In this document: in pieces, positions 2,007 to 58,996 of the stretch
Layout of the letters: each line of letters begins with the position of its first letter
Position numbering within the stretch: the first letter of the stretch is position 1
Translations under genes and position numbers: made by a program
Notes under the pieces: model-generated
Seen by the model: the letters and a program-made list of their open reading frames with translations, nothing else
Told to the model about the DNA's origin: nothing
Databases searched by the model: none
IMG/VR virus record: IMGVR_UViG_3300042330_000433
Coordinates: 1 to 64,000 of that record
Direction: 5' to 3' (one strand)
Source of the DNA: a virus
DNA: 64,000 nucleotides

Positions 2007-2038
2007 TTTGGAATTGTCAATTATTTGTTGTATCTTTG
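2007..2038 (+). promoter_or_regulatory. Bacteroidota-type promoter (first of tandem pair)
   Basis: TTTGG (2007-2011), 19 nt, TATCTTTG (2031-2038). This matches the -33/-7 pattern of Bacteroidota housekeeping promoters. Start of transcription would be near 2045, upstream of the second promoter and of the conserved element at 2056. Confidence 0.7.
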
Positions 2039-2055
2039 TAATATTAATAACGAAA

Positions 2056-2072
2056 TAGCTATTAGTAAATAA
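2056..2072 (+). promoter_or_regulatory. conserved upstream element, copy 1
   Basis: TAGCTATTAGTAAATAA lies exactly 28 nt before the TTTGG box of the promoter at 2101. The same 17-mer, with one T/C difference, is found at 10567 and 13076 at exactly the same distance from the promoter. It is the likely binding site of a transcription activator centred near -75. Confidence 0.75.
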
Positions 2073-2100
2073 GAATTTTTTAAAAATAATTGCAAAAACA

Positions 2101-2132
2101 TTTGGAATTTACAAATAAATGTTGTATATTTG
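2101..2132 (+). promoter_or_regulatory. late-class promoter of the noncoding RNA
   Basis: TTTGG (2101-2105), 19 nt, TATATTTG (2125-2132). The conserved element lies 28 nt upstream. Transcription should start near 2139-2141 and runs into a 260-nt stretch without an ORF. Confidence 0.8.
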
Positions 2133-2139
2133 CACTTAT

Positions 2140-2404
2140 TAAAATAAACAGCAACTAGTTTAGGATGCAGTTGCCTTAATTAACAGTGGACACGGCACTG
2201 ACGTATAGTTTTAAGGGGATGGGTTTTGCGAGGTATGACAACTTCTGTAACACTGGCTAGCCAAGAGGACATGATTTAACAAAATCGTGGAAACCTCGTT
2301 GTATCTATTAATTAAATAATTATATAAACTATAATATACGTTATAGTTATAGGAAACTTATATACTTTACCCACTATTTCTTATGATTTAGTGGGTTTTT
2401 TTTT
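2140..2404 (+). ncRNA. structured noncoding RNA of about 265 nt
   Basis: The stretch has its own late-class promoter and a strong terminator, and no ORF of note. At least five helices can be drawn: GCAACT/AGTTGC (2151-2156 with 2169-2174), CAGTG/CACTG (2184-2188 with 2196-2200), CGAGGT/ACCTCG (2229-2234 with 2293-2298), the nested CATGATTT/AAATCGTG (2270-2277 with 2282-2289) on an AACA loop, and AACTATAA/TTATAGTT (2327-2334 with 2341-2348). The terminator follows. The third helix encloses the fourth, so the RNA has a closed domain rather than a row of unrelated hairpins. A competing pairing ACAAC/GTTGT is possible in the same domain. I do not recognise it as tRNA, tmRNA, 6S RNA or a group I intron. 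Its role is unknown. The promoter class suggests it is made together with the portal and capsid genes. Confidence 0.7.
2369..2404 (+). terminator. rho-independent terminator of the noncoding RNA
   Basis: ACCCACTA (2369-2376) pairs with TAGTGGGT (2389-2396), followed by nine T residues. Confidence 0.9.
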
Positions 2405-2454
2405 GTGTCTAATAATTTATTTTAGGATATTTGTGAAAATAATTGGTAAAAAAC

Positions 2455-2485
2455 TTGTATAATTAAAATATATTTTGTATATTTG
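2455..2485 (+). promoter_or_regulatory. promoter of the endonuclease VII-like gene
   Basis: CTTG (TTG at 2455-2457), 20 nt, TATATTTG (2478-2485), 15 nt before the ATG at 2501. There is no conserved upstream element. Confidence 0.6.
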
Positions 2486-2500
2486 TAAAAAATTATTGAT

Positions 2501-2866
2501 ATGAGAATTTGTAGTTGTTGTAAACAAGAAAAAGAAACAAGTTATTTTAATAAACGTAAAAATGGTTATTATGCTTCTGTATGTACACCATGTTCTGTTG
2601 AAAATTATAGAGAAAAACATTTAATGTCTAAATATGGAATAACATTAGATTATTATGATAAATTATTAGAAAAACAAAATTATTGTTGTGAGATATGTAA
2701 ACATCCAAATAAATCAAAAAGAAGATTATCTGTAGACCATTGTCATATTACAGGAAATGTTAGAGGTTTATTATGTGACACTTGTAATACAGCATTAGGA
2801 AAATTTAGAGATAGTGTTGACTTATTAAATGAAGCTATAAAATATTTAAAAAAATATGAAAAATAA
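2501..2866 (+). CDS. recombination endonuclease VII-like HNH nuclease
   Basis: A 121-residue protein of the phage endonuclease VII family, whose T4 member (gp49) cuts Holliday junctions and branched DNA before packaging. A zinc-binding CxxC pair is split between residues 4-7 and 28-31. A second site is formed by C62/C63-C66 and C92-C95, around the catalytic core V-D-H-C-H (D79, H80, H82), followed by the typical G-x-V-R-G-L-L-C-x-x-C-N stretch (85-96). It has its own promoter and lies between two regulatory regions. It could be a resolvase serving the phage, or a mobile HNH gene like the other nuclease genes here. The N-terminal zinc knuckle is common to both. Confidence 0.85.
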   Translation: MRICSCCKQEKETSYFNKRKNGYYASVCTPCSVENYREKHLMSKYGITLDYYDKLLEKQNYCCEICKHPNKSKRRLSVDHCHITGNVRGLLCDTCNTALGKFRDSVDLLNEAIKYLKKYEK

Positions 2867-2877
2867 ATCACTTTTTA

Positions 2878-2909
2878 TTAGGATATATCAAAAATATGTT
2901 GTATCTTTG
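2878..2909 (+). promoter_or_regulatory. promoter of the small-gene/GroEL/TerL operon
   Basis: TTAGG (2878-2882), 19 nt, TATCTTTG (2902-2909). It uses a TTAGGATAT-type -33 box, like the promoter at 26409, and lacks the conserved upstream element. It is the only promoter seen before the run of genes 2933-10564. Confidence 0.7.
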
Positions 2910-2932
2910 TATAAGATTTAAAATTAGAAGTT

Positions 2933-3124
2933 ATGACATACCAAGAATGGTTCAAACAAATACAATGGTTAAAAGATAAAATAATATTACCTAATAACCA
3001 AACAATATCTAAATCAGATTATATAACTAAAGATGGTTTTGATATAAATAGATTTAACACAATGTTGTTTAAAACATATAATATGTTATACCCAGTTAAA
3101 GATGGAAGAAGATATAAGAAGTAA
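2933..3124 (+). CDS. small hypothetical protein (63 aa)
   Basis: Not recognised. A 63-residue protein with a Trp-rich N-terminal helix (YQEWFKQIQWL) and a basic end (GRRYKK). It is the first gene of a long operon of small overlapping genes and starts about 17 nt after the expected transcription start at 2916. A nested reading frame begins at 3102 within its last codons. Confidence 0.65.
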   Translation: MTYQEWFKQIQWLKDKIILPNNQTISKSDYITKDGFDINRFNTMLFKTYNMLYPVKDGRRYKK

Positions 3125-3215
3125 TTTATTTACTAAATTACAAAATGGAAAAATAGATTTATATACATTAATACAGATATTAACAAATGATAGAATATAT
3201 ACACGAAAAGATTAG
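3102..3215 (+). CDS. very small overlapping ORF (37 aa)
   Basis: ATG at 3102, stop TAG at 3213. The 37-residue product starts MEEDIRSNLF and looks like a single amphipathic helix. It bridges the only non-coding gap (3125-3186) in this operon and overlaps both neighbours, as many genes here do. No homologue is recognised, and it could be chance. Confidence 0.35.
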   Translation: MEEDIRSNLFTKLQNGKIDLYTLIQILTNDRIYTRKD

Positions 3216-3453
3216 ACAAGATTTAATTGTCAACCAAAAAGATTTATTTAACATGCGTCATTACTATACACATAAACATAGAAGTAATGATAGATTATTA
3301 GATGTTAATGTAGGGTTATTTAGAAATGACCAACAAGTATTAACAGCTCAAATATATGTAGCTGATAAGAATACTAAAATAAGAGAACAATTATTTTTAG
3401 ATGAAAACTTTAATATGATTGATAGTAATATAATAATTAAAAGATTAAACTAA
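3187..3453 (+). CDS. small hypothetical protein (88 aa)
   Basis: Not recognised. 88 residues, with a helical N-terminus followed by a stretch likely to be beta strands (LDVNVGLF, LTAQIYVAD). No membrane segment or Cys pair. Its stop overlaps the ATG of the next gene by one base (TAATG), which points to translational coupling in the operon. Confidence 0.65.
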   Translation: MIEYIHEKIRQDLIVNQKDLFNMRHYYTHKHRSNDRLLDVNVGLFRNDQQVLTAQIYVADKNTKIREQLFLDENFNMIDSNIIIKRLN

Positions 3454-3755
3454 TGAAAGATTATTTTTTATATAAAAAACAAACCCATAGTATTAATACC
3501 TTAAATGGTATTTTAAATGAAAGCAACTTAGAGTTTGCTAAAAAAACAATGTTATTTGATGTAATTAGAGATTACACAGAACTTGTTAAAACTAAACAAC
3601 ATTATCCACATAATGATATCTCTGATGTAGATATGACAATTGATTGTGTTATAATGACTAGAGATAATTATAATAAGATGATTAAACTTATTCCTGAATT
3701 ACCAGAAGAAAATAAAATTAATGAATTATTAAACTTTCCTAAATTAGACGTATAA
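3453..3755 (+). CDS. small hypothetical protein (100 aa)
   Basis: Not recognised. 100 residues, mostly helical, with no obvious motif. It is joined to both neighbours by TAATG overlaps, so it is surely part of the same translated operon. Confidence 0.65.
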   Translation: MKDYFLYKKQTHSINTLNGILNESNLEFAKKTMLFDVIRDYTELVKTKQHYPHNDISDVDMTIDCVIMTRDNYNKMIKLIPELPEENKINELLNFPKLDV

Positions 3756-4018
3756 TGAGTACATATAAAAAGAATGGTAAAAGGCAACTAGTTGTTAATA
3801 ATAAAAAACAAACTAAGTTACATGTTAAGAAGTTTTATGGTATATTAGCTCAAATGGAAACTATATCTAAAGAGTTAGATCAAACTATAGAATATACAGA
3901 AGATAATATTAATGATTACGTAAAACCTATCTTAGGTAGAGATTTAGACTCTATGGAAAAGTTTTTAGTATTAGGTAAATTACATCATGGAAAAGAAGCC
4001 ACAGATCAACCTTCATAA
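3755..4018 (+). CDS. small basic hypothetical protein (87 aa)
   Basis: Not recognised. A strongly basic N-terminus (about 1-28, many Lys and Arg) precedes a helical region. The basic end suggests nucleic-acid binding, but no motif proves it. The 3' end overlaps the next gene by 32 nt. Confidence 0.65.
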   Translation: MSTYKKNGKRQLVVNNKKQTKLHVKKFYGILAQMETISKELDQTIEYTEDNINDYVKPILGRDLDSMEKFLVLGKLHHGKEATDQPS

Positions 4019-4277
4019 TATTAAATCTTTTTTAGAAGGAAACGGGCAAAGAGTTTTAGAAGAATTAAAGTTACAACCTAAACATATACAAGAACAAATA
4101 GCATATCGTAGATTACTATGTAAAAATGATTGTGCTGTTCAAAACAAATGTATAAAATGTGGATGTGACTTTAAAGGTAAAACTTCAGTACAACAATCTT
4201 GTAATCCTGAAAGATTTCCTGATTTAATGAGTAAAATAGAATGGGATAAATATAAAGACACAAATGGAATTAATTAA
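3987..4277 (+). CDS. putative zinc-binding small protein (96 aa)
   Basis: 96 residues. The middle holds five cysteines (LLCKNDCAVQNKCIKCGC, about 44-61) and one more near residue 72 before a conserved-looking C-terminus (PERFPDLM). The spacing fits a zinc knuckle or treble-clef-like fold. Small Cys-rich proteins of this form are widespread in Bacteroidota phages next to packaging genes, but I know no assigned function. Confidence 0.7.
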   Translation: MEKKPQINLHNIKSFLEGNGQRVLEELKLQPKHIQEQIAYRRLLCKNDCAVQNKCIKCGCDFKGKTSVQQSCNPERFPDLMSKIEWDKYKDTNGIN

Positions 4278-4470
4278 CACATATGTTATAGAAAATAAAC
4301 CTCTTAAAGAGTTACTTGATAATATTGATAAAATAAGTTCTAATATAGAAGTATTTAAAGAAAAACATAAAGGATATAATTATGACATAAAAATTATAAA
4401 TAATGCACAGGATAGTGACTATTTTGATGCTGAAATAAATATAATGTATGAAAAGCAAGAAAACGCTTAG
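4264..4470 (+). CDS. small hypothetical protein (68 aa)
   Basis: Not recognised. A 68-residue acidic protein with a helical N-terminal half. It overlaps the gene before it by 14 nt and the gene after it by 23 nt. Confidence 0.6.
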   Translation: MELINTYVIENKPLKELLDNIDKISSNIEVFKEKHKGYNYDIKIINNAQDSDYFDAEINIMYEKQENA

Positions 4471-4759
4471 AAACTATACAGAGCTTCTTAAGCATATGAA
4501 ATATTATAATAATCTAGCACCATTCCCTGTGTATGATACAGATTATGTAAATGATGTAGAAAATAAAATTAAAGAAATAATGAATGATAAACTAAAAGAA
4601 TACGATGAAGAGCCAGTGTGGGCATGTAGATTTTGTAAAAAATTACACATTGAATCAGATGAAGTAGGTAATGATGTTTGTATGATATGTGGATCTATTA
4701 ATGAACTACAAGAATATAAAACAATTTTTGAATGGCAAAAAAATAAAAATAATGACTAA
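4448..4759 (+). CDS. small zinc-ribbon protein (103 aa)
   Basis: 103 residues. A helical N-terminal half is followed by a zinc ribbon: CRFC (about 60-63) and CMIC (about 78-81), with about 14 residues between the pairs. Zinc ribbons of this kind bind nucleic acid or protein. No closer assignment is possible. Confidence 0.65.
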   Translation: MKSKKTLRNYTELLKHMKYYNNLAPFPVYDTDYVNDVENKIKEIMNDKLKEYDEEPVWACRFCKKLHIESDEVGNDVCMICGSINELQEYKTIFEWQKNKNND

Positions 4760-5147
4760 TAATAAAGTTGCTAATATTAATGTTAAACTTAAAACTTTAT
4801 TTTTTAAATGGTTAGAACTATTAAAGCCTTGGCATTCATTAAATAATCAACAACAACAAGTATTAGCTCTTTTATTGTATTATCATTATTTATATAAAAA
4901 AGATACAACTAATAATAAAATACTTTGGAAAATTGTATTTGATTATGATACAAGATTAAAAATTGTAGAAGATGAAGTTTTTGAAAAAGGTATGACTACA
5001 AATACTCTAAATAATATATTTACTATATTAAGAAAGAAAGGTGTTATTATAGATAACCAAGTAGCTAGTGTTTATATTCCTGAACTTGAAATAAACAGTA
5101 AAAACTTTAAAGTATTATTCAATTTTAATATAGTTGATAATGAGTAA
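4752..5147 (+). CDS. conserved phage protein, possible winged-helix (131 aa)
   Basis: I place the start at the ATG at 4752, inside an ATGACTAA overlap with the previous stop, rather than at an in-frame ATG 63 nt upstream that would overlap the zinc-ribbon gene deeply. The 131-residue protein has an aromatic N-terminal helix (LFFKWLELLKPWHSL), a Leu/Tyr-rich helix, and then a segment (FEKGMTTNTLNNIFTILRKKGVI, about 77-99) that resembles a recognition helix plus wing. I recall similar proteins in Bacteroidota phages upstream of the terminase, of unknown function. The DNA-binding role is inference. Confidence 0.65.
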   Translation: MTNNKVANINVKLKTLFFKWLELLKPWHSLNNQQQQVLALLLYYHYLYKKDTTNNKILWKIVFDYDTRLKIVEDEVFEKGMTTNTLNNIFTILRKKGVIIDNQVASVYIPELEINSKNFKVLFNFNIVDNE

Positions 5148-5424
5148 ACCAGATGATGATAAAGTTAAAGCACTTATACATAGTATAGGTTTAAAACATA
5201 ATTTACAAGATGATGTTATTAAAAAGATAATAGGATCACCTTATAAGTTTACAAGAGATAAAATGGTTGAGTTATCAATTAATGATGACATGACAGAAGA
5301 AGAATATAATAAATTAAAAACAAACTTCATATATCTTTATATAGGAAAGTTATATACTACCTACGATATATGTACTAAATTTTATAAAATAAGAAAAGAA
5401 AGATGGAAGAAAGAAGAAATTTAA
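5140..5424 (+). CDS. small hypothetical protein (94 aa)
   Basis: Start taken at ATG 5140 (ATGAGTAA overlap with the previous stop) rather than at the TTG two codons earlier. A 94-residue helical, charged protein with a Tyr-rich stretch near residues 67-82 and a very basic tail (KIRKERWKKEE). Not recognised. It lies just before the GroES-like gene and overlaps it by 22 nt. Confidence 0.65.
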   Translation: MSKPDDDKVKALIHSIGLKHNLQDDVIKKIIGSPYKFTRDKMVELSINDDMTEEEYNKLKTNFIYLYIGKLYTTYDICTKFYKIRKERWKKEEI

Positions 5425-5762
5425 ATCAAGATGACGTATTAGACTTAATGCTAAATTTTCCTTTAGAACCAATGTTTAATGGTATTTATATTACAACAAA
5501 TAGAATTGAAGAAGAAGGATTAGAACTAAGTGATTCAGTATTATCAGATGTTCAATATGTAGTAGCTGCAGGTCCTACATCACAAGTCCCAGCAGGACAA
5601 AAAGTATTAATTGATATTGAAAAATTAATGGTTAATTCAAAAGCTGAACAAACTAATGCTTATGAGGCAGTTAAAGAAGTTAAAATTGATTTAATTGAAC
5701 TTAGTAATAATATGTTTGCTCTTGTAACAGATAGAGTAGTTAAAGCTAAAGATAACAGATAA
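5403..5762 (+). CDS. GroES-like co-chaperonin
   Basis: 119 residues, close to the size of GroES (97) and T4 gp31 (111). The layout matches the GroES beta-barrel: an opening PLEPMFNGIYITTNRIEEEG (compare the GroES start RPLHDRVVVKR), a mobile-loop region after residue 40, then VVAAGP and V-P-A-G-Q-K-V-L-I-D (about 51-68), which corresponds to VLAVG...VKVGDIVIF in GroES, and a final strand. Sequence identity is low, so the call rests on pattern and context: a GroEL gene follows two genes downstream in the same operon. Together they would form a folding chamber fitted to a phage protein, probably the capsid protein. Confidence 0.65.
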   Translation: MEERRNLNQDDVLDLMLNFPLEPMFNGIYITTNRIEEEGLELSDSVLSDVQYVVAAGPTSQVPAGQKVLIDIEKLMVNSKAEQTNAYEAVKEVKIDLIELSNNMFALVTDRVVKAKDNR

Positions 5763-6328
5763 TGAAATTATTTGAGATGAAAGACTTCTCGCTATTTGTA
5801 ACAGAAGAAGCGTGGGGTCTTTTGCCTTTCAAGGCAATATTAAAACGAGATAAAAGTAGAACTAAAGAAACGGCATTTAAAGAAATGTTATTTATTTATT
5901 ACTTTACAGATATCAGATCTGATTATGTTTATTTAGTAAACGATGCTGAAAGGACTAAAGAAATTATTAAAGATATTGGTTTACCATCAGATTGGAAAAT
6001 AGACCAAGTAATGAAAGATGCTATTGCTTTTTATAACTCAAGATCATTAAGTCCTATTGCTAAGTTATATAAATCATCTTTAAAAGCTGCTGATGATATA
6101 TCTAAGTATTTAGAAATGACAGATGTTTTATTAGCTGAAAGAACAGATAAAGGTGCTACAGTAACTACATTAGCTGTTATTACAGGATCACTTAAATCAG
6201 TTCCTATTATTATGAAAGATTTAAAAGCTGCTTATAAAGAAGTATTAGCTGAACAAAAAGAATTAGAAGGAAGAACTAAAGGAAGTAGAACAATGTCACT
6301 TTTTGAAGATGGTTTAGGAGAACTATAA
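5762..6328 (+). CDS. conserved phage protein of unknown function (188 aa)
   Basis: 188 residues, alpha-helical. The N-terminus (MKLFEMKDFSLFVTEEAWGL) and the segment FIYYFTDIRSDY are of a type I recall from several Bacteroidota phages upstream of packaging genes, without known function. The second half contains a helix-rich stretch ending in a basic KGSRTM and an acidic tail. Coupled to the GroES-like gene and to the following GIY-YIG gene by TAATG overlaps. The GIY-YIG gene probably entered between this gene and groEL. Confidence 0.7.
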   Translation: MKLFEMKDFSLFVTEEAWGLLPFKAILKRDKSRTKETAFKEMLFIYYFTDIRSDYVYLVNDAERTKEIIKDIGLPSDWKIDQVMKDAIAFYNSRSLSPIAKLYKSSLKAADDISKYLEMTDVLLAERTDKGATVTTLAVITGSLKSVPIIMKDLKAAYKEVLAEQKELEGRTKGSRTMSLFEDGLGEL

Positions 6329-6870
6329 TGAGGAAAACTAATAATAAATGTGTTTATTTACATAAACGATTAGATAATAATATTATATTTTATGTAGGTA
6401 TGGGTACATTAAAAAGACCTTATAAAACTACAGGTAGAAATATATATTGGAAAAGAATAGTTAGCAAAGTAGGATATTATATTGAAATAATAAAGGAAAA
6501 TTTATCTTGGTCTGAAGCATGTAAATTAGAATGTGATTTAATAAATAAATATCGTTCTGATAATCTGTGTAATATGACCGATGGTGGTGATGGATCAAAA
6601 GGAACTTCACCATCTAAAGAAACAAGATTAAAAATTAGTGAATTTCATAAAAATAAATCAAAATCTAATGAAGCTAAATTAAAAATGTCAAAAGCTAAAA
6701 AAGGATTATATTTATTAGAAAATAATCCTAATTCTAAAAAAGTAATAAACATTAATACAAATATAATTTTTAATACATTAAAAGAAGCCTCTATTTATGA
6801 AAATATGAATTATGGTACTTTTAAGTGGGCAATTAAAAATAAAATAAATTTTAATTACAAATACATATAA
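6328..6870 (+). CDS. GIY-YIG homing-type endonuclease 1
   Basis: 180 residues. The catalytic GIY-YIG domain is at the N-terminus in variant form: VYLH (9-12) and FYVG (21-24), then a Trp-Lys-Arg stretch and the glutamate-containing segment SWSEACKLECDLINKY. The MTDGGDG turn that usually ends the domain follows. The rest holds NUMOD-type DNA-binding repeats (SKETRLKISEFHKNK, EAKLKMSKAKKG) and a NUMOD1-like end (KVININTNIIFNTLKEAS). It cuts DNA to promote its own spread and has no role in the particle. Its ends reproduce the TATAATG junctions of its neighbours, so translation of groEL downstream is kept. Confidence 0.88.
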   Translation: MRKTNNKCVYLHKRLDNNIIFYVGMGTLKRPYKTTGRNIYWKRIVSKVGYYIEIIKENLSWSEACKLECDLINKYRSDNLCNMTDGGDGSKGTSPSKETRLKISEFHKNKSKSNEAKLKMSKAKKGLYLLENNPNSKKVININTNIIFNTLKEASIYENMNYGTFKWAIKNKINFNYKYI

Positions 6871-8327
6871 TGAAAGAAATATATTTTAAAAATGAAGCTG
6901 AAGAATTATTATTTGGTGGAATACAAAAATTTACAGATGCTATTGCATGTACTTTAGGACCTAATGGTAAAACAGTTATTATAACTGATGAATATGGTAA
7001 ACCTAAAGTTACTAAAGATGGTGTATCAGTAGCAAGAGAAATATCATTTAAAAATGCTGTTGAAAACATTGGAGCACAACTCGTAAAAGAAGTTTGTGAA
7101 TTACAAGTTAAGCAAGCAGGTGATGGAACAACTACAGCTATTGTATTAGCTAATGCTTTTATTCAAAATTTAAAAGGTTTTGAATCTAAAGATATTAACA
7201 AAGCTTTTGATGAAATTATTCCAAAAGTTATTGAACAATTAAAACTTAATTCAAAAGAATTAAAACGTGAAGATATTAAACATGTTGCTACTATATCTGC
7301 TAATAATGACGTACAGATTGGTGACATTATACAACAGGCTTATAACTTTTCTAATATAGTTAAAGCTGAAGAATCTAATAATTTAGAAGATACTCTAGAA
7401 ACTATAGAGGGAATGAAATTAGATGTATCATATATGTCTAAACTGTTTAGTAATACTAGCAAAGAAACCTGCGAGTTTACAAATCCTTATGTTCTTTTAT
7501 TAGATGGAAAACTAGAAGACCTTTTATTATTTAGACAAATACTTGAAAAAATTAGTTCTGAAAAAGAAAATTTACTTATCATTACAGAGTATATTGCTCC
7601 TAAAGAATTACGTAAGTTAGAAACATTAGTTCTTAATAAAAACATTAATGCTTGTGTTATTAAGACACCAGGATTTGGGCCTGTAAGAAAAGATTATCTT
7701 AGAGATTTATCTGACTTTACTGGAGCTGATATTATTGCTGTACAGTCAAACAAATCATACTTACCATCATGTTTAGGTAAGCTTGGTTCATGTGTTATTA
7801 ATAAAAACAATAGTTTACTAATAAAACATGAAGATGTTAATGTAGAAGATATTGTAGATAGTTTAACAAAGCTTTCTAAAAATAAAGAATTAACTGATTA
7901 TGATATAGAAATACTTAATAAACGTATTGCTAATCTTACAGCTAAAGCATCTATTATTAAAGTAGGTGGTGGTTCTGAAATAGAAATGAAAGAACGTAAG
8001 GATAGATATGATGATGCTATATTAGCTGTTGCATGTGCATTAGAAGAAGGAATTGTACAAGGTGGTGGTGAAGCATTAAGATCTATTGTAAATAATCTTT
8101 CAATTTTTAAAAGTGATCTTAATAATAGTATTAGAATATCTTTAACAGCTCCTGTTAATAGAATTATTGCAAATGGTGCAGTATTTAAAAATTCTGATAA
8201 TATGTTTGATGAAAATATTATAGATCCACTTAAAGTAACTAGATGTGCATTATTAAATGCAGTGTCTATAGCTAAAACAGTATTATCAACTGAAACAATT
8301 ATACTTAATGAACGACAATGGAATTAA
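6870..8327 (+). CDS. groEL: GroEL-type chaperonin
   Basis: 485 residues against 548 in E. coli GroEL. The equatorial ATP site is intact: TLGPNGKTVI (28-37), TKDGVSVARE with D50 (E. coli D52), AGDGTTTA with D85 (D87), and YDDA with D382 (D398) followed by LEEGIVQGGG. The apical domain is present (PGFGPVRKDYLRDL, 267-280). The missing length comes from small internal losses and from the absent Gly-Met tail; the protein ends ETIILNERQWN. The catalytic aspartates suggest an active, self-assembling chaperonin. It stands between a mobile GIY-YIG gene and terL, which it overlaps by 10 nt, in the same operon as a GroES-like gene. The likely client is a phage structural protein (inference). Confidence 0.95.
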   Translation: MKEIYFKNEAEELLFGGIQKFTDAIACTLGPNGKTVIITDEYGKPKVTKDGVSVAREISFKNAVENIGAQLVKEVCELQVKQAGDGTTTAIVLANAFIQNLKGFESKDINKAFDEIIPKVIEQLKLNSKELKREDIKHVATISANNDVQIGDIIQQAYNFSNIVKAEESNNLEDTLETIEGMKLDVSYMSKLFSNTSKETCEFTNPYVLLLDGKLEDLLLFRQILEKISSEKENLLIITEYIAPKELRKLETLVLNKNINACVIKTPGFGPVRKDYLRDLSDFTGADIIAVQSNKSYLPSCLGKLGSCVINKNNSLLIKHEDVNVEDIVDSLTKLSKNKELTDYDIEILNKRIANLTAKASIIKVGGGSEIEMKERKDRYDDAILAVACALEEGIVQGGGEALRSIVNNLSIFKSDLNNSIRISLTAPVNRIIANGAVFKNSDNMFDENIIDPLKVTRCALLNAVSIAKTVLSTETIILNERQWN

Positions 8328-10564
8328 ACAGGTATCAAACAAAGATAACACCTGAACTAAAAGAAAAGTTACCTAAAGAAGTATATGAAAATTTAATTGA
8401 ATATACATCAACTATTAAGTTTATTAAAAATTTAATAGCACCTGAACATATAAGAGGATTTGCTAAAGATAAACCTAAATCAGATTTATATGATGATGGT
8501 AGAATCCATGTAGATATAACTAATCCTCATATATTAGAGGATATGGATTATTTTAGACAACCTGCTATATTTTTTGAAAAGAATGGTAAGTATACTAATA
8601 TACCACCAAACAGTAATCCTAAATCTGAATATGCTGAATATTGGAAAGAAGAATTACGTAAATGGAAATATGGTATGGTACGTGAATCAGATGGTGAATG
8701 GATTCCTGGAGAGTTATATTTCTATTGGAATTATTCACCTATATGGTTAGTACAAACTATAGCAGTTAGTGGTGCAGGTGAAAGATCTCAAGGTGAACGT
8801 GTTAAGAAATTTGCTAAACCATGGTTAGGTGATTATTTATATTTTCATTATACAGCTAGAGCTAAACGTTTAGGTAAACATGGTAAAGTTCTTAAAACAA
8901 GGGGTATTGGATTTAGTTTTAAAAATGCATCTGAGTCACCTAGAAATATGTATGTGTTTCCAGGTTCAGGTAATCCTAATTTTCATTTAGCATCTGATAA
9001 AGGATTCTTATCTGGAGATAAAGGAATATGGGGTAAAGTACTAGATACTTTAGACTGGATTGCAGAACATACACCATTACCTCGTATGAGAACAATTGAT
9101 GCTACTAAAGAGATGAATATCCAGTTAGGATATAAAGATGAATACGGCTCACGTAAGGGCTTATTATCTTCAGTCTTTGGTATATCATTAAAAGATAATC
9201 CTGATAAAGCTAGGGGTATTAGAGGACCTTTAATTCACTATGAAGAAGATGGTTTGTTTCCTAACTTAGAAAAAGCATGGAACGTTAATAGAAAAGCTGT
9301 GGAAGATGGTGGTGTATCATTTGGATTTATGTTGGCAGGTGGAACAGGTGGTGTTGAAGGAGCTTCATTTGCAGGTTCTGAAAAACTATTTTATAAACCT
9401 GGAGCATATAACATATATGGTATACCTAATATATTTGATAAAGGAGCTAGTGGTGAAAATGAATGTGGTTTCTTTTGGGGAGCGTATTTAAATAGAAATG
9501 AATGTTATGATGAATCATGTGGTGAACCAGATGTTATTAAATCTTTAATAGAAATATTATTAGATAGGCACGAAGTTAAATACAATTCATCTGATGCAAG
9601 AGCTATTACTCAAAAGAAAGCTGAGGAACCTATTACACCTCAAGAAGCTATTATGCGTACTGAAGGTACAGTGTTTCCTGTAGCTGATATAAAAGATTAC
9701 TTAGAAAGTATTGGTCCTAAAAAAGAATCATTTCTTGCAGAACATTATGTTGGAGATATAGTTTATGACAATGCTGGTAATACTAAATGGGAAATGACAA
9801 CTGATAAATATCCACTTAGAGCTTATGATAGTTCTGATACAGATAGAACAGGTTGTTTAGAGATATTTGAAATGCCTAAAAAGAATGCTAATGGTGAAAT
9901 TGCTAGAGGAAGATACATATTTGGTATTGACCCTATTGATGCAGATACAGGAACTTCGTTATTTAGTATAATTGGTATGGATACTTTTACTGACAGAATA
10001 GTTTGTGAGTATACAGGTAGACCTAGATTAGCTAATGATGCTTATGAAACTGCATTACGTATACTAAAATTTTATAATGGTGAAGCTAACTATGAATCTA
10101 ACTTAAAAGGATTATTTAGTTATTTTGATGCTAGAAATTGTTTACATTATTTATGTGATGTACCACAGATATTAAAAGATATGGAATTAGTTAAAGCAAC
10201 TAATTTATATGGTAATAAAGCTAAAGGTACTCATGCTAATAAAGAAATAAATAAATGGGGTAGATTACTTCAAGCACAATATATGTTAACTCAATATAAT
10301 GAAAATGATGAAGAAGATAATAGCTTAAAACTACATCATATTAGAAGTATTCCTTATTTAGAAGAATGTATAGCTTGGAATAGTGATGGTAACTTTGATA
10401 GGGTTTCTGCCGCAGGTATGTTATTTTTATTAAGAGAAGATAGAGTTAAAAGAACTAACTCTATGATAGCTAATCAAAATAATAAAATTAAACAAGCTTC
10501 ACAAGATTCTTTTTTTGAAAAAAATTGGAATAATAATAAACTTAATAACAACTCAATGTACTAA
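8318..10564 (+). CDS. terL: terminase large subunit (TerL)
   Basis: 748 residues. It pumps DNA into the prohead and cuts it. The ATPase domain has the shifted Walker A typical of terminases, KTRGIGFS (193-200), with the Lys at the start, and Walker B LIHYEED (305-311). The RNase H-like nuclease follows with acidic residues D538 (GIDPIDAD), D604 (SYFDARN) and D694 (NFDRVSAAG). Length and layout fit crAss-like terminases. No small subunit is recognised nearby. The gene ends just before the conserved upstream element at 10567, and the portal has its own promoter, so packaging and capsid genes are partly uncoupled. Confidence 0.93.
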   Translation: MELNRYQTKITPELKEKLPKEVYENLIEYTSTIKFIKNLIAPEHIRGFAKDKPKSDLYDDGRIHVDITNPHILEDMDYFRQPAIFFEKNGKYTNIPPNSNPKSEYAEYWKEELRKWKYGMVRESDGEWIPGELYFYWNYSPIWLVQTIAVSGAGERSQGERVKKFAKPWLGDYLYFHYTARAKRLGKHGKVLKTRGIGFSFKNASESPRNMYVFPGSGNPNFHLASDKGFLSGDKGIWGKVLDTLDWIAEHTPLPRMRTIDATKEMNIQLGYKDEYGSRKGLLSSVFGISLKDNPDKARGIRGPLIHYEEDGLFPNLEKAWNVNRKAVEDGGVSFGFMLAGGTGGVEGASFAGSEKLFYKPGAYNIYGIPNIFDKGASGENECGFFWGAYLNRNECYDESCGEPDVIKSLIEILLDRHEVKYNSSDARAITQKKAEEPITPQEAIMRTEGTVFPVADIKDYLESIGPKKESFLAEHYVGDIVYDNAGNTKWEMTTDKYPLRAYDSSDTDRTGCLEIFEMPKKNANGEIARGRYIFGIDPIDADTGTSLFSIIGMDTFTDRIVCEYTGRPRLANDAYETALRILKFYNGEANYESNLKGLFSYFDARNCLHYLCDVPQILKDMELVKATNLYGNKAKGTHANKEINKWGRLLQAQYMLTQYNENDEEDNSLKLHHIRSIPYLEECIAWNSDGNFDRVSAAGMLFLLREDRVKRTNSMIANQNNKIKQASQDSFFEKNWNNNKLNNNSMY

Positions 10565-10566
10565 AT

Positions 10567-10583
10567 TAGCTATTAGTAAATAA
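10567..10583 (+). promoter_or_regulatory. conserved upstream element, copy 2
   Basis: TAGCTATTAGTAAATAA, identical to copy 1, starts 3 nt after the terL stop codon and ends 28 nt before the TTTGG box of the portal promoter. Confidence 0.75.
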
Positions 10584-10588
10584 AAAAA

Positions 10589-10627
10589 ATTGTGTTATTT
10601 CTTATAAATTATTTGGAATAACACAAT
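10589..10627 (+). repeat. 11-bp inverted repeat around the -33 box of the portal promoter
   Basis: ATTGTGTTATT (10589-10599) and AATAACACAAT (10617-10627) are perfect inverse copies with 17 nt between them, and the TTTGG box (10612-10616) lies in the loop. The other two promoters of this class lack it. It could be a dimeric operator or a DNA cruciform. Confidence 0.65.
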
Positions 10628-10643
10628 TAATTTTGTATATTAG
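10612..10643 (+). promoter_or_regulatory. late-class promoter of the portal gene
   Basis: TTTGG (10612-10616), 19 nt, TATATTAG (10636-10643, one mismatch to TAnnTTTG). The conserved element lies 28 nt upstream. Start of transcription is expected near 10650, 26 nt before the portal ATG. Confidence 0.75.
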
Positions 10644-10675
10644 TAAGTTATTAATAAATTTAATATAAATTATAT

Positions 10676-13078
10676 ATGCCAACACCAAGAATAAATAGTA
10701 TTATAATGCCTAGACAGCGTTTGAAATACAGCCAAAAAAATAAAGAATGGCGAAAAGATAATGTGGATCATGCAGATAAACATTCATTCTATAATAATGA
10801 GTATGTTAGGAAAAGTCTTCAAAACAAAGTTATAAATTTAAATTTATATAATGGTATTGTAGATATTAGAGATTTAACAAACGTAGTAAATCCACATCAA
10901 GTAGATGCTTCATTTGTACCTAACAATATTCCACATCACCCTATAATGGTACCAAAGATTGATTTGTTGGTAGGAGAAGAAATTAAACGTAGATTTGATT
11001 GGTCTGTAATTGTTACCAATGCTGATGCTATTAGTAAAAAAGAAGAAGATAAAAAAGCTTTTCTTCAACAAAAACTTACTGAATTTTTAGAGGCTAATTA
11101 TAAAGAAGATGAATTAAAAGTTAAAATGGATGAACTTGCTAAACATATGAAATATAGTTGGCAAGACATTCGTGAAAAAATGGCTAATCAAATTCTTAAA
11201 CATTATAGCCAAGAACAAAGATTTGATAGATTATTTAACGATGGATTTAAAGAAGCTTTAATTTTAGCTGAAGAAATTTATCAGTGTGATATTGTACATG
11301 ATGAACCATATTTAACTAAATTAAATCCACTAAAAGTACATAGTATTAGAAGTGGTAATTCAGATAGAATTGAAGATTCATCTATTATAATTATACAAGA
11401 TCACTGGAGTCCTAATAAAATTGTTGATGTTTATCACGATGAATTAAAACCTGAAGATATTGATTATATTATGGAATATACTCAAACATCATCTAAAGGC
11501 TCTTACTCCGATGATCAAAATAATCACGTTCTTTTACGTGATGCTTTGAACACTGGGGTTGAAGGAATGTATGATACAATCTTTAATTTAGCTGAAATTA
11601 ATGGTCACTTCTTTGGCTCTAACTTTACAGATGATACAGGTAATATACGTGTATTAAAAGTATTTTGGAAATCATTGAAACAAGTATACAAAGTTAAATA
11701 TTATGATGAATATGGAGAAGAACAATATAAAATTGCTTCTGAAGAATATATTCCTAATAAAGATTTAGGTGAAGAATTAACTTCTATGTGGGTTAATGAA
11801 TGGTGGGAAGGTGTTAAGATAGGTAAAGATGTTTATTTAAATATTAAACCTAGAAGAATACAATATAATAAAATTAATAATCCATCATTATGTCATCCAG
11901 GTATTATTGGACAAATATATAATACTACTCAATCTAAAGCAGTATCATTAGTTGATAGATGTAAAAACTATCAATATATGTATGATGTTATTTGGGATAG
12001 ACTTAATAAAGCTATATCTACTAATTATGGTAAAATATTTGAATTAGATTTAGCTAAAGTTCCTGAAAATTGGGAAATAGAAAAATGGTTACACTTTGCA
12101 GTAGTAAATAAGATTGCTGTAATAGATTCATTTAAAGAAGGTAATCAAGGTGCAGCAACTGGTAAATTAGCTGGTGGTTTTTCTGGACAAGGTGGTAGAG
12201 TTATGGATATGGAAACAGGTTCATATATTCAACAACATATCCAGTTACTTGAGTTTATTAAAATGGAAATGGGTGAGATTGCAGGAGTATCTGCACAACG
12301 TCAAGGACAAATTTCTAATAGAGAAACTGTTGGTGGTGTAGAAAGATCTGTTAATCAATCATCTCATATTACAGAGTATTGGTTTATGTTACATGAACAA
12401 TGTAAAATTAGAGTATTAGAATGTTTTCTAGAAACTGCTAAGATTGCACTAAAAGGTAATAATAAAAAAGTACAATATATATTAGATGATCAATCTATTG
12501 AAATTTTAAATTTAGATGCTGATGAATTTTGTGAAAATGATTATGGATTAGTATTAACTTCTAGTTCTAAAACACAAGAGTTAGAATCTATGATTAAACA
12601 AAATGCTCAAGCTTTCTTACAGAATGGTGGAAGTATGTCAACTATTATGGATATATATTTTAGTCCATCTTTATCAGATATGAGAAGAAGACTTGAAGAA
12701 GCTGAAGAACAAACACATCAAAGAAATTCTGAAGCATCTCAACAACAATCTAAAGATGCTCAAGCTGCAATGGCTCAAACAATGGAATTAGAAAATAGAA
12801 AATTAGAACTTGAAGATATAAAAAATCAAAGAGATAATGAAACTAAACGCTATATTGCTGAGTTATCAAATGAGTTAAATGGTGAAGAAGTTTCAGATGA
12901 TGGTATTGTTAATCCTTTAGATGAAGCAAAGTTTCAATTAGATAGTCAAAAAAGAAAAGATGATTATTTACTAAAAATAAAAGCTTTAGATCAAGACATG
13001 ATTAAACATAAAGATCAAATGGAGGCTAAAAAAATAGATCAAAGTATAAATAGAATAAAAAAGAAAAGTACGAATTAG
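10676..13078 (+). CDS. portal protein
   Basis: 800 residues. It forms the ring at the capsid vertex through which DNA enters and leaves. The assignment rests on crAss-type portal features: a basic N-terminus, the region KIDLLVGEEIKRRFDW (about 95-110), the IAGVSAQRQGQISNRETVGGVE stretch (about 535-555) typical of this family, and a long C-terminal coiled coil rich in Gln, Glu and Lys (about 675-800). Position directly after terL and before the scaffold and capsid genes agrees. It ends with TAG, which is also the first three bases of the third conserved upstream element. Confidence 0.92.
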   Translation: MPTPRINSIIMPRQRLKYSQKNKEWRKDNVDHADKHSFYNNEYVRKSLQNKVINLNLYNGIVDIRDLTNVVNPHQVDASFVPNNIPHHPIMVPKIDLLVGEEIKRRFDWSVIVTNADAISKKEEDKKAFLQQKLTEFLEANYKEDELKVKMDELAKHMKYSWQDIREKMANQILKHYSQEQRFDRLFNDGFKEALILAEEIYQCDIVHDEPYLTKLNPLKVHSIRSGNSDRIEDSSIIIIQDHWSPNKIVDVYHDELKPEDIDYIMEYTQTSSKGSYSDDQNNHVLLRDALNTGVEGMYDTIFNLAEINGHFFGSNFTDDTGNIRVLKVFWKSLKQVYKVKYYDEYGEEQYKIASEEYIPNKDLGEELTSMWVNEWWEGVKIGKDVYLNIKPRRIQYNKINNPSLCHPGIIGQIYNTTQSKAVSLVDRCKNYQYMYDVIWDRLNKAISTNYGKIFELDLAKVPENWEIEKWLHFAVVNKIAVIDSFKEGNQGAATGKLAGGFSGQGGRVMDMETGSYIQQHIQLLEFIKMEMGEIAGVSAQRQGQISNRETVGGVERSVNQSSHITEYWFMLHEQCKIRVLECFLETAKIALKGNNKKVQYILDDQSIEILNLDADEFCENDYGLVLTSSSKTQELESMIKQNAQAFLQNGGSMSTIMDIYFSPSLSDMRRRLEEAEEQTHQRNSEASQQQSKDAQAAMAQTMELENRKLELEDIKNQRDNETKRYIAELSNELNGEEVSDDGIVNPLDEAKFQLDSQKRKDDYLLKIKALDQDMIKHKDQMEAKKIDQSINRIKKKSTN

Positions 13079-13092
13079 CTATTAGCAAATAA
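13076..13092 (+). promoter_or_regulatory. conserved upstream element, copy 3
   Basis: TAGCTATTAGCAAATAA, one base different from the other copies. It overlaps the portal stop codon and ends 28 nt before the TTTGG box at 13121. Confidence 0.75.
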
Positions 13093-13120
13093 CAAAAAAT
13101 TGAATATTTTTTAATATTTA

Positions 13121-13152
13121 TTTGGAATTATTTATAAAATAGTTTATATTTG
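13121..13152 (+). promoter_or_regulatory. late-class promoter of the scaffold/capsid genes
   Basis: TTTGG (13121-13125), 19 nt, TATATTTG (13145-13152). Transcription start is expected near 13159, so translation of the next gene cannot begin at the upstream in-frame TTG at 13150, which lies inside the -7 box. Confidence 0.8.
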
Positions 13153-13179
13153 CAAACTTTATATAACACGGGAGAAATT

Positions 13180-14256
13180 ATGGAAGAAAATGAAGATTTA
13201 ACATCAATCTTTAGTTCAGCAATGGATTTAAATTTTGATAGTACATATTTTGAATCTGATGAAGATCAAAATGATGAAAACAACAATGATGATTTGGATG
13301 AAGATCCAGAAAAAAATAAAGCTATTGAGGGTGAAGATCCAGAGGACGTAGATAGTGAAGAAGACGATAATAATGAAGGTGATGATTCAGGTGATGAATC
13401 TTCTCCCAACTTATATTCTTCCATCTCTAACGTTCTATTTGAACAAGGTCTATTACCTTCATTAGAGTCTTCTGAAAATATTAAAACAGTAGATGATTTT
13501 ACAAATGCTTTAAAAGTTGAAATTGACACTCAAGCTAAACTAAAAATTGAAGAGCATTTAAATAATTTAGATTTAGAAACAATTGCTACTTCTAAAAAGC
13601 AAATTCTAGATTTAGATAAAATTGATGAAGATTATTTAAAAGATAATCTTGAAGTTGCAAAAGATATTATTTTTAGAGATTATGTAAATCAAGGACTATC
13701 TGAAGATAGAGCTAAAAAAATGTTAAGAAAGACTATTGATTTAGGTGAAGACATTTTATTAGAAGATGCTTTAGAATCTAAAGAAAGTTTAAAAGCATTT
13801 GAAAATAAACAAATAGCTCTTGAATTACAACGAGTAGAGCAAAACAAAATTAATCAAGCTAGAGAACAAGAAAAAATTGATAATTCAATTAAACAATTTA
13901 TTTTTGAATCTAAAGAAGTAATTAAAGGAATACCTAATACTAAAGCAATTAGTGATAAAGTATTCAAGACAATGACTGAAGTTGTTAGTAAGAATCCTGA
14001 AACAGGTGAATTAGAAAACAAATTCATGAATGAAAGATCTAAAGACCCAATTCGATTTGATACAAAAATGTATTACTTATATGAATTAACAAATGGTTTT
14101 ACAGATTTAAGTAAAATAAAAACAACAGTTAAATCAAGTGCTACTAGAGATCTAGAAAAAGCATTAAGAAAAACTAAGTTTGAAGATAATGGACAACCAG
14201 GTTATTTAACAGATCCTAATAGTTACTCAGGTGGATTTGGAAGTGAGTTGGTTTAA
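13180..14256 (+). CDS. acidic scaffold-like capsid assembly protein
   Basis: 358 residues from ATG 13180. That start is fixed by the promoter and by a rare Shine-Dalgarno-like GGGAG at 13170-13174, 5 nt before the ATG. The first 90 residues are extremely acidic and of low complexity (Asp, Glu, Asn, Ser). The middle and end are helical with coiled-coil character (about 195-260). Size, composition and position between portal and major capsid protein fit a phage scaffolding protein, which shapes the prohead and then leaves or is cut. No protease motif is seen. The functional call is inference from context. Confidence 0.75.
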   Translation: MEENEDLTSIFSSAMDLNFDSTYFESDEDQNDENNNDDLDEDPEKNKAIEGEDPEDVDSEEDDNNEGDDSGDESSPNLYSSISNVLFEQGLLPSLESSENIKTVDDFTNALKVEIDTQAKLKIEEHLNNLDLETIATSKKQILDLDKIDEDYLKDNLEVAKDIIFRDYVNQGLSEDRAKKMLRKTIDLGEDILLEDALESKESLKAFENKQIALELQRVEQNKINQAREQEKIDNSIKQFIFESKEVIKGIPNTKAISDKVFKTMTEVVSKNPETGELENKFMNERSKDPIRFDTKMYYLYELTNGFTDLSKIKTTVKSSATRDLEKALRKTKFEDNGQPGYLTDPNSYSGGFGSELV

Positions 14257-14297: not shown

Positions 14298-15803
14298 ATG
14301 AGTTTAGGAAAGTATGTAATGACCAAAGGTAAAGCATGGTCAGGTTTAACACTAAAAAATCACATCGGTGCAATTTTTGGATTACAACCACAATTAGTTT
14401 CACCATTAACAACTGTGTTGTTACAAAGCTCTGGAATGAAAAATTTAGATACAACATTATCTATGTTCCCAGAAAAAGTTTTAAACAGTGCGGATGATTT
14501 TGTATGGAAAGTAGTAGGTAGTGATGAAAGAAATATACCACTTGTTGAAGCAAGATTTCAAGGCGCAGTAGTTACTTCAAGTACAACTGGTGTTGGTCAA
14601 GCTAGAACACAATTCCAAATGGTATTTGGAGAAAAATGGTTTACTAAAATGCATGTTATTGCAGGTCCTAGACCAGATGTATATCAAATTAGAATTTTAG
14701 AAGATGCTTTTGAAGAAGGATCATTGTATGTTTATAACTGTGAAGTATGGGGTGGTCAAGAATCACTTGCTGGTATTCCTGGAGATGAACTTGTAGGTGG
14801 AAATAGATTTAGTATTGAATCTGCATATTCTGAAGATGAACTTTCTATTCAAGGTGCTGGAATTCAATTTACTTCACCTTACTTAATGAGAAACTCAGTT
14901 TCTACATTACGTATGGAACATAAAGTTTCTGGTGCAATGATTGATTGTAAAGTAGAACCAGTTTATTTTGCTGGTATTGAAACAAGAGATCCTAACACAG
15001 GTAAAGTACATAAGTCTACAACTTGGATGCAAGAAGTTTACTGGCAGTTTGAAAAATCATTTTCACGAATTAAATCTCGTACAATCATGTTTGGTAAAAC
15101 AAACCGTGATGAAAATGGTGGATATTTAAACGTTGGTGCATCAGGTATCAAAATTAAAGCAGGTTCTGGTATTAGAGAACAAATGGAAGTTTCAAATACA
15201 ATTACGTATAACTTCTTCTCAATGCGTTTACTTGAAGATGCTCTTTCAGAATTATCAGAAGGTAAATTAGATTTCTCTGAACGTAAATTTATGTTACGTA
15301 CAGGTGAAAGAGGAGCTGCTCAATTTAATAGAGCTGCTACTGCTGCTGCTTCTGGTTGGAAATCATTATTTGATAATACCAATCAAAATGCAATCAATAA
15401 AGTACAATCTAAATTCCATGAAAATGCATTTAAAGGTGGATTCCAATTCACTGAATGGTTAGCACCTAATAACATTCATATTATGTTAGAGGTAGATCCA
15501 GCTTATGATGATAAAGTTCGTAACAAAATTTTACATCCAGATGGTGGAGTTGCTGAATCTTACAGATATGATATTCTTTACATTGGTTCAATGGAAGAGC
15601 CTAACATCCAAAAAATCAAAGTTAAAGGCGATGATGAATTGAGAGGTTATATGGCAGGTATTAGAGATCCATTTTCTGGACGTAGAGGTGGAATCATGCA
15701 ATTAATGGAAGATAGTGCTACTATGACAGCTATGTGTGGTACAGGAGCGATGGTTAAAGATCCTTCTAGAACACTAACTTTCAAACCAGCATTGTTAGAT
15801 TAA
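14298..15803 (+). CDS. major capsid protein (crAss-like, HK97-type)
   Basis: 501 residues. It starts MSLGKYVMTKGKAWSGLTL and contains PLTTVLLQSSGMKNLD, GEKWFTKMHVIAGPRPDVYQIRI and a Trp-rich WMQEVYWQFEKSFSRIKSRT segment (about 237-256), all of the kind I know from crAss-like capsid proteins. The HK97 fold cannot be read from sequence directly but is established for the family. The gene is less AT-rich than its surroundings and uses more uniform codons, as expected for the most abundant virion protein. It ends at a strong terminator (15820-15849), giving a short scaffold-capsid transcript from the promoter at 13121. Confidence 0.93.
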   Translation: MSLGKYVMTKGKAWSGLTLKNHIGAIFGLQPQLVSPLTTVLLQSSGMKNLDTTLSMFPEKVLNSADDFVWKVVGSDERNIPLVEARFQGAVVTSSTTGVGQARTQFQMVFGEKWFTKMHVIAGPRPDVYQIRILEDAFEEGSLYVYNCEVWGGQESLAGIPGDELVGGNRFSIESAYSEDELSIQGAGIQFTSPYLMRNSVSTLRMEHKVSGAMIDCKVEPVYFAGIETRDPNTGKVHKSTTWMQEVYWQFEKSFSRIKSRTIMFGKTNRDENGGYLNVGASGIKIKAGSGIREQMEVSNTITYNFFSMRLLEDALSELSEGKLDFSERKFMLRTGERGAAQFNRAATAAASGWKSLFDNTNQNAINKVQSKFHENAFKGGFQFTEWLAPNNIHIMLEVDPAYDDKVRNKILHPDGGVAESYRYDILYIGSMEEPNIQKIKVKGDDELRGYMAGIRDPFSGRRGGIMQLMEDSATMTAMCGTGAMVKDPSRTLTFKPALLD

Positions 15804-26408: not shown

Positions 26409-26440
26409 TTAGGATATGTTAAATATTTTTTGTATATTTG
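26409..26440 (+). promoter_or_regulatory. promoter of the exonuclease gene
   Basis: TTAGG (26409-26413), 19 nt, TATATTTG (26433-26440). Same TTAGGATAT-type -33 box as at 2878, and no conserved upstream element. Confidence 0.75.
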
Positions 26441-58693: not shown

Positions 58694-58996
58694 TTATATA
58701 TTTTTGTATTTTTTTGTTGTTATGTATTTGTAAAATTTCTTTAGTTTGAAATTAATACGTTCTTTAATTAATTCATTAGAAAATATTTCAGTAATAACTT
58801 TTAGTCTTATTTTAACATCTCCTATTTCTTCTATAATTTTTAAATCTGATACTAAATCAGGTTTATTTTGTTTTTGTTTTAAAATTAAAGCTAATTCTAA
58901 TAACTCTTCTATTGTTTTAGAAATTGTATAATCTCTATCATTAACATTAAGTAAATGATCATATACAATGTCTTTTTCATTTTGTTCCATTAGCAA
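58694..58996 (-). CDS. MazG-like NTP pyrophosphohydrolase
   Basis: 100 residues, all helical. It carries the two acidic motifs of the MazG/all-alpha NTP pyrophosphatase fold: E30-E31-x-x-E34 (TIEELLELALIL) and E56-E57-x-x-D60 (IIEEIGDVKIRL), with the usual spacing. Such phage enzymes clear unwanted nucleotides or lower host ppGpp. It is followed after 1 nt by the two-domain protein, in the same leftward operon. Confidence 0.78.
   Translation of the reverse strand: MLMEQNEKDIVYDHLLNVNDRDYTISKTIEELLELALILKQKQNKPDLVSDLKIIEEIGDVKIRLKVITEIFSNELIKERINFKLKKFYKYITTKKYKNI

Follow-up and report, generated by a model that had tools for sequence, protein, structure and literature searches.

An upstream element shared by three promoters

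Three promoters of a crAss-like phage, which precede a structured noncoding RNA (ncRNA), the portal gene and the scaffold/capsid genes, hold the same short element at a fixed distance upstream of their core boxes. With a probability of roughly 0.72, this element is the upstream binding site of an activator whose small regulon consists of these three promoters, and a phage protein that turns on the virion genes would probably bind to it. The stretch of DNA analysed (here called the window) comprises 64,000 nucleotides (nt), positions 1 to 64,000 of the IMG/VR virus record IMGVR_UViG_3300042330_000433; the parent record holds 92,212 bases, and among named phages the one closest to it by DNA is Cellulophaga phage phi14:2, a member of the Steigviridae. 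The observation holds far beyond the window and, as judged from sequence comparison, its decisive support is the retention of sequence, spacing and place in related phages.

The element was proposed in a first-pass annotation of this DNA as the 17-mer TAGCTATTAG(T/C)AAATAA, and the exact copies at 2056-2072, 10567-10583 and 13076-13092 have been confirmed. When the entire 92,212-base record is scanned, only these three appear at up to two mismatches, while at up to three mismatches nine matches are found against 3.7 expected, a number reached in none of 100 shuffles. The spacing is also as annotated at all three sites: 28 nt separate the 17-mer from the TTTGG of the -33 box (2101, 10612 and 13121) and 19 nt separate the latter from the -7 box (2125, 10636 and 13145), the distance from the start of the GCTAT core to the -7 box being exactly 67 base pairs (bp) in each case. 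The sequence TAnnTTTG given for the -7 box is correct for two of the promoters, but the portal box at 10636 (TATATTAG) is one base off.

All these features are located on the + strand. Element 1 (TAGCTATTAGTAAATAA, 2056-2072), an exact match with its core GCTAT starting at 2058, lies upstream of the ncRNA promoter, which occupies 2101-2132 (TTTGG at 2101-2105, 19 nt, and the -7 box TATATTTG at 2125-2132). Element 2 (again TAGCTATTAGTAAATAA, 10567-10583) precedes the portal promoter at 10612-10643 (TTTGG at 10612-10616, 19 nt, and TATATTAG at 10636-10643), and is kept upstream of the portal gene in relatives. The portal gene itself (10676-13078) was recognized by DNA similarity to annotated portal genes and has 76 protein relatives. 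Element 3 (TAGCTATTAGCAAATAA, 13076-13092) begins at the portal stop codon, and relatives keep it before their scaffold gene; it is followed by the promoter at 13121-13152 (TTTGG at 13121-13125, 19 nt, and TATATTTG at 13145-13152). Behind this promoter lies the putative scaffold gene (13180-14256), located between the portal gene and that of the major head protein (14298-15803; PHROG 11589, E 1.7e-142), the same gene order as in phi14:2. The open reading frame of the putative scaffold had been listed as 13150-14256, but its start is more likely the ATG at 13180, which follows a GGGAG.

The promoters at 26409, 33974 and 42530 lack the element, as originally reported. The same holds for the promoter at 2878, because the GCTAT found there at -68, which could be taken for a fourth site, is coding sequence inside an HNH gene and is replaced by GCTGT or GCAAT in relatives. 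The list of promoters in the annotation missed one: a TTTGG followed after 19 nt by TATCTTTG at 2007-2038 (+), which lacks the element and whose expected transcript start falls just upstream of element 1. A counterpart of this promoter is present in three relatives (L003, L005 and L007).

Conservation in related phages

A search for the element and its spacing in related genomes, suggested in the first-pass annotation as a check, revealed the three-site arrangement with fixed spacing in many relatives. The absence of such conservation had been named there as grounds for refutation, and the proposal survived this test. The set consisted of the window and 76 contigs encoding a portal relative, a total of 1.18 Mb searched on both strands. 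In this set, the combination of GCTATT and a downstream TAnnTT(T/A)G box was found 93 times with 61 intervening bases, 14 times with 60 and 8 times with 62, compared to about 2 at other distances. These sites appear at the same three places, upstream of the ncRNA, of the portal gene and of the scaffold/capsid genes: the portal site is present in 58 loci, the scaffold site in 66 (one of them, in L071 with a spacing of 72, being doubtful), and the arrangement of element 1 upstream of the ncRNA locus in L003, L005, L007, L011, L012, L023, L026, L040, L044, L045, L049 and L052. The entire records of relatives hold these sites, the remaining matches being scattered in coding sequence, and G001, G002, G015, G016 and G018 exhibit exactly the three sites.

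The cultured phage phi14:2 holds two copies, at the portal and scaffold genes, located on the minus strand of its record at 89178-89253 and 86721-86796. A counterpart of its ncRNA site (GCTATAAG, L077 3193) has about 5 bp of extra spacing and no recognizable ncRNA behind it, and was not counted. In more distant relatives the core changes to GTTAT: L070 has AGTTATTAGAAAACCTAT before the portal gene, with a second copy directly downstream of the gene (GTTAT at -69), and L071 and L074 have AGTTATCGCT at the scaffold gene (GTTAT at -67).

Core and flanks of the element

Conservation around the sites was studied with 36 portal, 42 scaffold and 11 ncRNA sequences, all mutually different. GCTAT is nearly invariant and TTA(G/C) is common, while conservation fades outside these bases, indicating that the 17-mer is the version of a shorter core that this particular phage carries. 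The sequences were anchored on GCTAT and its invariance is in part a product of that choice, which does not apply to the spacing peak or to the GYTAT variants. The site and spacing originally described are conserved, but what is deeply conserved is GCTAT (GYTAT in distant relatives) and not the 17-mer.

The flanks show a different behaviour. When the portal site is compared with the scaffold site, positions -3 to -1 agree at 2.50 of 3 bases within a genome and at 1.80 of 3 between genomes, and positions +5 to +15 at 7.65 of 11 and 4.92 of 11, respectively (0 of 5000 permutations in both cases); from +16 on, agreement within genomes is only slightly raised. Flanks that are alike within genomes and differ between them are the trace expected from a co-evolving sequence-specific binder covering about 18 bp, so that this parallel change supports the existence of a binding factor. 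Gene conversion among the sites would also make flanks alike, but it is a weaker alternative, as the neighbouring bases differ. A dyad-symmetric operator was rejected, as a symmetry scan gave no signal beyond the core consensus.

A related arrangement is found in gut Steigviridae (crAss001, frurule and others), which hold CAGTAAATTTAG(T/C)A where terL ends, its TTTAG being located 66-67 bp upstream of the -7 box of the portal promoter. It has been seen in L085 (11540-11617), W04 (2303-2380), L092, L100, L101, L107 and L116. This GTAAATTTAG site resembles GCTAT in its position before the portal gene, since the distance from the start of its TTTAG to the -7 box is 67 bp, but it differs in sequence and usually occurs once per genome instead of three times. 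It may represent either the same system with a changed specificity or an analogous one.

Candidate regulatory proteins

The best candidate for the activator is a 131-amino-acid winged-helix-like protein encoded at 4752-5147 (+), a homologue of crAss001 Gp13 ("putative VpsT-like transcriptional regulator"), whose chance of being the protein in question may be put at about one in three. Members of this family were found in 13 of 13 genomes compared. Its structure, predicted with high confidence (pLDDT 92.5), consists of a helical domain with a small wing, in which helices 32-49, 55-62, 65-72 and 83-95 are followed by short strands, the last helix being the likely recognition helix. Pfam matches to winged-helix families are weak and scattered, a fold search against the PDB gave no match at E<=0.001, and the only significant structural matches are phage proteins, the best one a crAss-like "VpsT-like putative transcriptional regulator". 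The "VpsT-like" label comes from crAss-phage annotation; no solved VpsT-like (LuxR/FixJ-type) regulator was matched in sequence or fold, the sequence matches obtained being weak and those to transcription factors among them of the MarR type.

The likely recognition helix of the family has the motif xNxxT in almost every genome whose sites are GCTAT or GTTAT, and is QVIMG-like in the gut phages with GTAAATTTAG. Moreover, in 26 genomes the divergence of this protein tracks the divergence of the site beyond that of the virion proteins (partial r 0.43, 0 of 2000 permutations), and it is the best in this respect of eight late-region proteins. Two of its neighbours are possible alternative factors: a zinc-ribbon-like protein (4448-4759, +), a homologue of crAss001 Gp11 ("putative transcription factor, zinc-finger fold") whose divergence does not track the site (0.05), and a possible accessory factor (5134-5424, +; 0.23), a homologue of crAss001 Gp14, which is annotated as protein HU. 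The product of 58694-58996, which has a weak Pfam match to the Trp repressor, was rejected as activator for its resemblance to MazG-type nucleotide pyrophosphohydrolases, and Pfam and PHROGs searches on the other early and middle proteins gave no clear transcription factor.

A more ambitious proposal, which must be regarded as doubtful, is that the conserved Gp13-like protein, whose gene precedes terL, acts as master late activator throughout the Steigviridae crAss-like phages. In one large clade it would act on GCTAT at three promoters, including the one upstream of its own gene, in gut phages it would have switched to GTAAATTTAG at the portal promoter, and at site 1 it would also shut the promoter located upstream. 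Positive feedback is conceivable because the candidate gene lies downstream of promoter 1, which the protein would then activate; between this promoter and the genes at 2933-10564, which include the candidate and terL, lie the hairpin at 2370-2404 and the promoter at 2878.

Proposed activation and its alternatives

According to the mechanism proposed here, a phage protein would bind the GCTAT site and activate the promoters of the ncRNA, the portal gene and the scaffold/capsid genes, and these late promoters would be read by the host RNA polymerase. Protein binding, activation instead of repression, late timing and the use of the host enzyme are all inferred. The virion genes behind the promoters, the off-consensus core of the portal promoter and the distant but fixed site together suggest activation of late promoters of the host polymerase. 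The terms "late" and "host RNA polymerase" draw on gene content, on the Bacteroidota-type -33/-7 boxes and on transcription studies of crAss001 and phi14:2, which tentatively assign the late genes to the host enzyme, an injected polymerase having first transcribed the early ones (PMC8375218, PMC10136315). The protein bound at element 1 could in addition close the promoter at 2007-2038, as p4 does in phage phi29, since element 1 sits just past that promoter.

Several points weigh against this proposal. Repression would leave the same sequence pattern, and promoter 1 may not need an activator, because it has a strong core of the element-less class. With respect to the candidate protein, the correspondence between recognition helix and site type reflects a single event on the tree, and a genome-wide covariation scan (51 families, 10 genomes) placed 4752-5147 only 16th, or 11th without phi14:2, with no clear winner.

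Among the alternatives, the one that survives best is that a phage or host protein represses these promoters until late, timing being set by relief of repression. All the sequence evidence for a co-evolving binder fits this equally well, and a protein bound at element 1, just past the promoter at 2007-2038, would be well placed to block it. Nevertheless, the site is located well upstream of the polymerase footprint, from where direct repression is uncommon, and the core of the portal promoter is off-consensus, as in activated promoters, which makes repression unlikely.

It is rather improbable that the phage has borrowed a transcription factor of its host to bind the element. Flanks that differ among related phages of different hosts could follow the factors of those hosts, but the pattern of element plus promoter matches only 11 stretches in 84,980 prokaryote genomes, none of them promoter-like, and no host regulon is therefore visible, a result that covers the flanks only as they stand in the tested pattern. 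In viral contigs the same pattern was found in 21 stretches, most of them from relatives already in the set; of seven further contigs, three encode a portal protein and four gave no match to five tested proteins. Thus, of the DNA-bound and probably phage-encoded activator originally postulated, the binding factor is supported by flanks that change in parallel, and a host regulon is improbable, but for the protein itself only a candidate can be named.

A third explanation, with little probability, considers the element as an RNA-level signal at the end of the upstream transcript (the flank of a terminator, or a processing or antitermination site) that happens to stand beside a hairpin. Elements 2 and 3 are indeed located at gene ends, and a hairpin is often predicted between the element and the -7 box in portal and scaffold regions (median z -2.7 for the scaffold). 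In the window, such a hairpin, terminator-like for terL transcripts, extends from 10580 to 10636 (+) between element 2 and the -7 box, as deduced by folding the L001 sequence, which is nearly identical (-17.5 kcal/mol, z -5.2). However, the ncRNA sites keep the element and its spacing without any such hairpin (median z -0.1), indicating that both features are separate and ruling out the hairpin as a component of the element. In addition, the core lies 67 or 68 bp from the -7 box at portal sites, with two exceptions, while the upstream stop codon is found anywhere from 27 nt before the core to 36 nt after it, and in 16 of 35 portal cases the core falls inside the terL coding sequence. As the distance to the promoter is constant and that to the stop codon varies, the site must be regarded as a promoter element and not as part of a gene end or terminator. 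As for the terminator-like hairpins themselves (10580-10636 and its counterparts), they have a 3' arm that overlaps with the -33 box of the promoter that follows, and their arm sequences vary between relatives while pairing is kept.

The least probable explanation is an extended promoter feature read by the RNA polymerase itself (an UP-like element, or recognition by an alternative sigma factor) with no separate activator, which would fit an AT-rich region at fixed spacing to the core boxes, but UP elements consist of A/T tracts located at about -40 to -60, whereas the invariant bases of this element include GC and lie farther upstream, and its flanks change together at several sites from one lineage to another.

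Among 91 promoters with a recognizable core in the loci compared, the 53 that lack the element show no base preference at -67, and have in common AAAATAA near -40 and TGTCA in the spacer. This second promoter class, perhaps a middle class, is exemplified by 2878 and 26409 in the window and by L003 2548, L011 1955 and L044 1601, and exhibits a conserved GGATATGTCAAA spacer (TGTCA with 0.8-1.4 bits per position) before TATCTTTG. The ncRNA promoters of several relatives unite this second-class spacer with the GCTAT element.

Comparison with known systems

The primary sigma factor of the Bacteroidota recognizes promoters with the consensus TTTG at -33 and TAnnTTTG at -7. The core boxes of all these phage promoters fit this consensus, to which the element at -67 is an addition that is missing from the 53 other promoters of the same phages. 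As in activated phage late promoters of the P2 and phi29 kind, a common sequence stands at a fixed distance from the core boxes, and two of the promoters precede portal and scaffold/major head genes, the third preceding the ncRNA.

The sites of the P2 protein Ogr are centred near -55. The element described here is located farther upstream and has an asymmetric GCTAT core, while the P2 sites read TGT-N12-ACA (PMC3931495). Ogr (like P4 delta and 186 B) is a small phage protein that binds a short upstream site and activates late promoters, and both systems share a short site common to a few late operons, upstream of host-type promoters (PMC3931495). The Ogr-like suspect in this phage would be the zinc ribbon at 4448-4759, which has CX2C-X17-CX2C in place of the CX2CX22CX4C of Ogr and, as mentioned above, does not track the site.

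In phi29, the phage protein p4 binds upstream of the late promoter A3, which has a poor -35 box, activates it and simultaneously represses the neighbouring early promoters (PMC3100819). Element 1 and the promoter at 2007-2038 form a similar tandem layout. However, p4 binds inverted repeats as a dimer, while no dyad is found here beyond the core, and here several promoters have one site in common. No search made revealed a relationship between p4 and the candidate at 4752-5147.

The kind of system is therefore known from P2 Ogr and phi29 p4, but the sequence, the phage group and the set of three promoters with an RNA among them seem to be new, and the probable upstream activator site is real and apparently undescribed. 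No description of it was found in the literature searched, a scope that left out the phi14:2 transcription paper, where an earlier mention is possible; the word "promoter" is absent from the main texts of PMC7886860 and PMC10136315. The crAss-like phages are among the commonest gut viruses, and how they switch on virion genes after the early genes read by the injected polymerase is now a directly testable question, given a defined site, three promoters, a cultured phage (phi14:2) with the same site, its analogue in crAss001 and a specific candidate protein. The element also places a structured ncRNA under the same apparent control as the portal and capsid genes.

The noncoding RNA and its surroundings

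The structured ncRNA (2141-2404, +) is located downstream of promoter 1 and ends in a terminator-like hairpin at 2370-2404. An alignment of 10 relatives exhibits compensatory changes in 12 of the 22 predicted pairs, and an Rfam search assigned the RNA to no family. The same ncRNA is found in L003, L007, L011, L012, L023, L026, L040, L044 and L052. Other relatives show RNA-like sequences unrelated to it behind the same element-bearing promoter (L005 from about 1307, L045 from about 630 and L049 from about 204), L005 and L045 having one such sequence in common and L049 another, as if RNA cassettes were swapped at this spot.

An HNH-type endonuclease frame (2501-2866, +) is encoded between the ncRNA and the promoter at 2878. 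A frame of this type is also present behind the ncRNA in L007 and L023, with the same C-terminal codons, but apparently not in all relatives. Finally, a full-length Hatchet self-cleaving ribozyme is located at 824-974 on the - strand (RF02678, 75.1 bits, E 1.2e-13), where the late region borders on a stretch with few genes.

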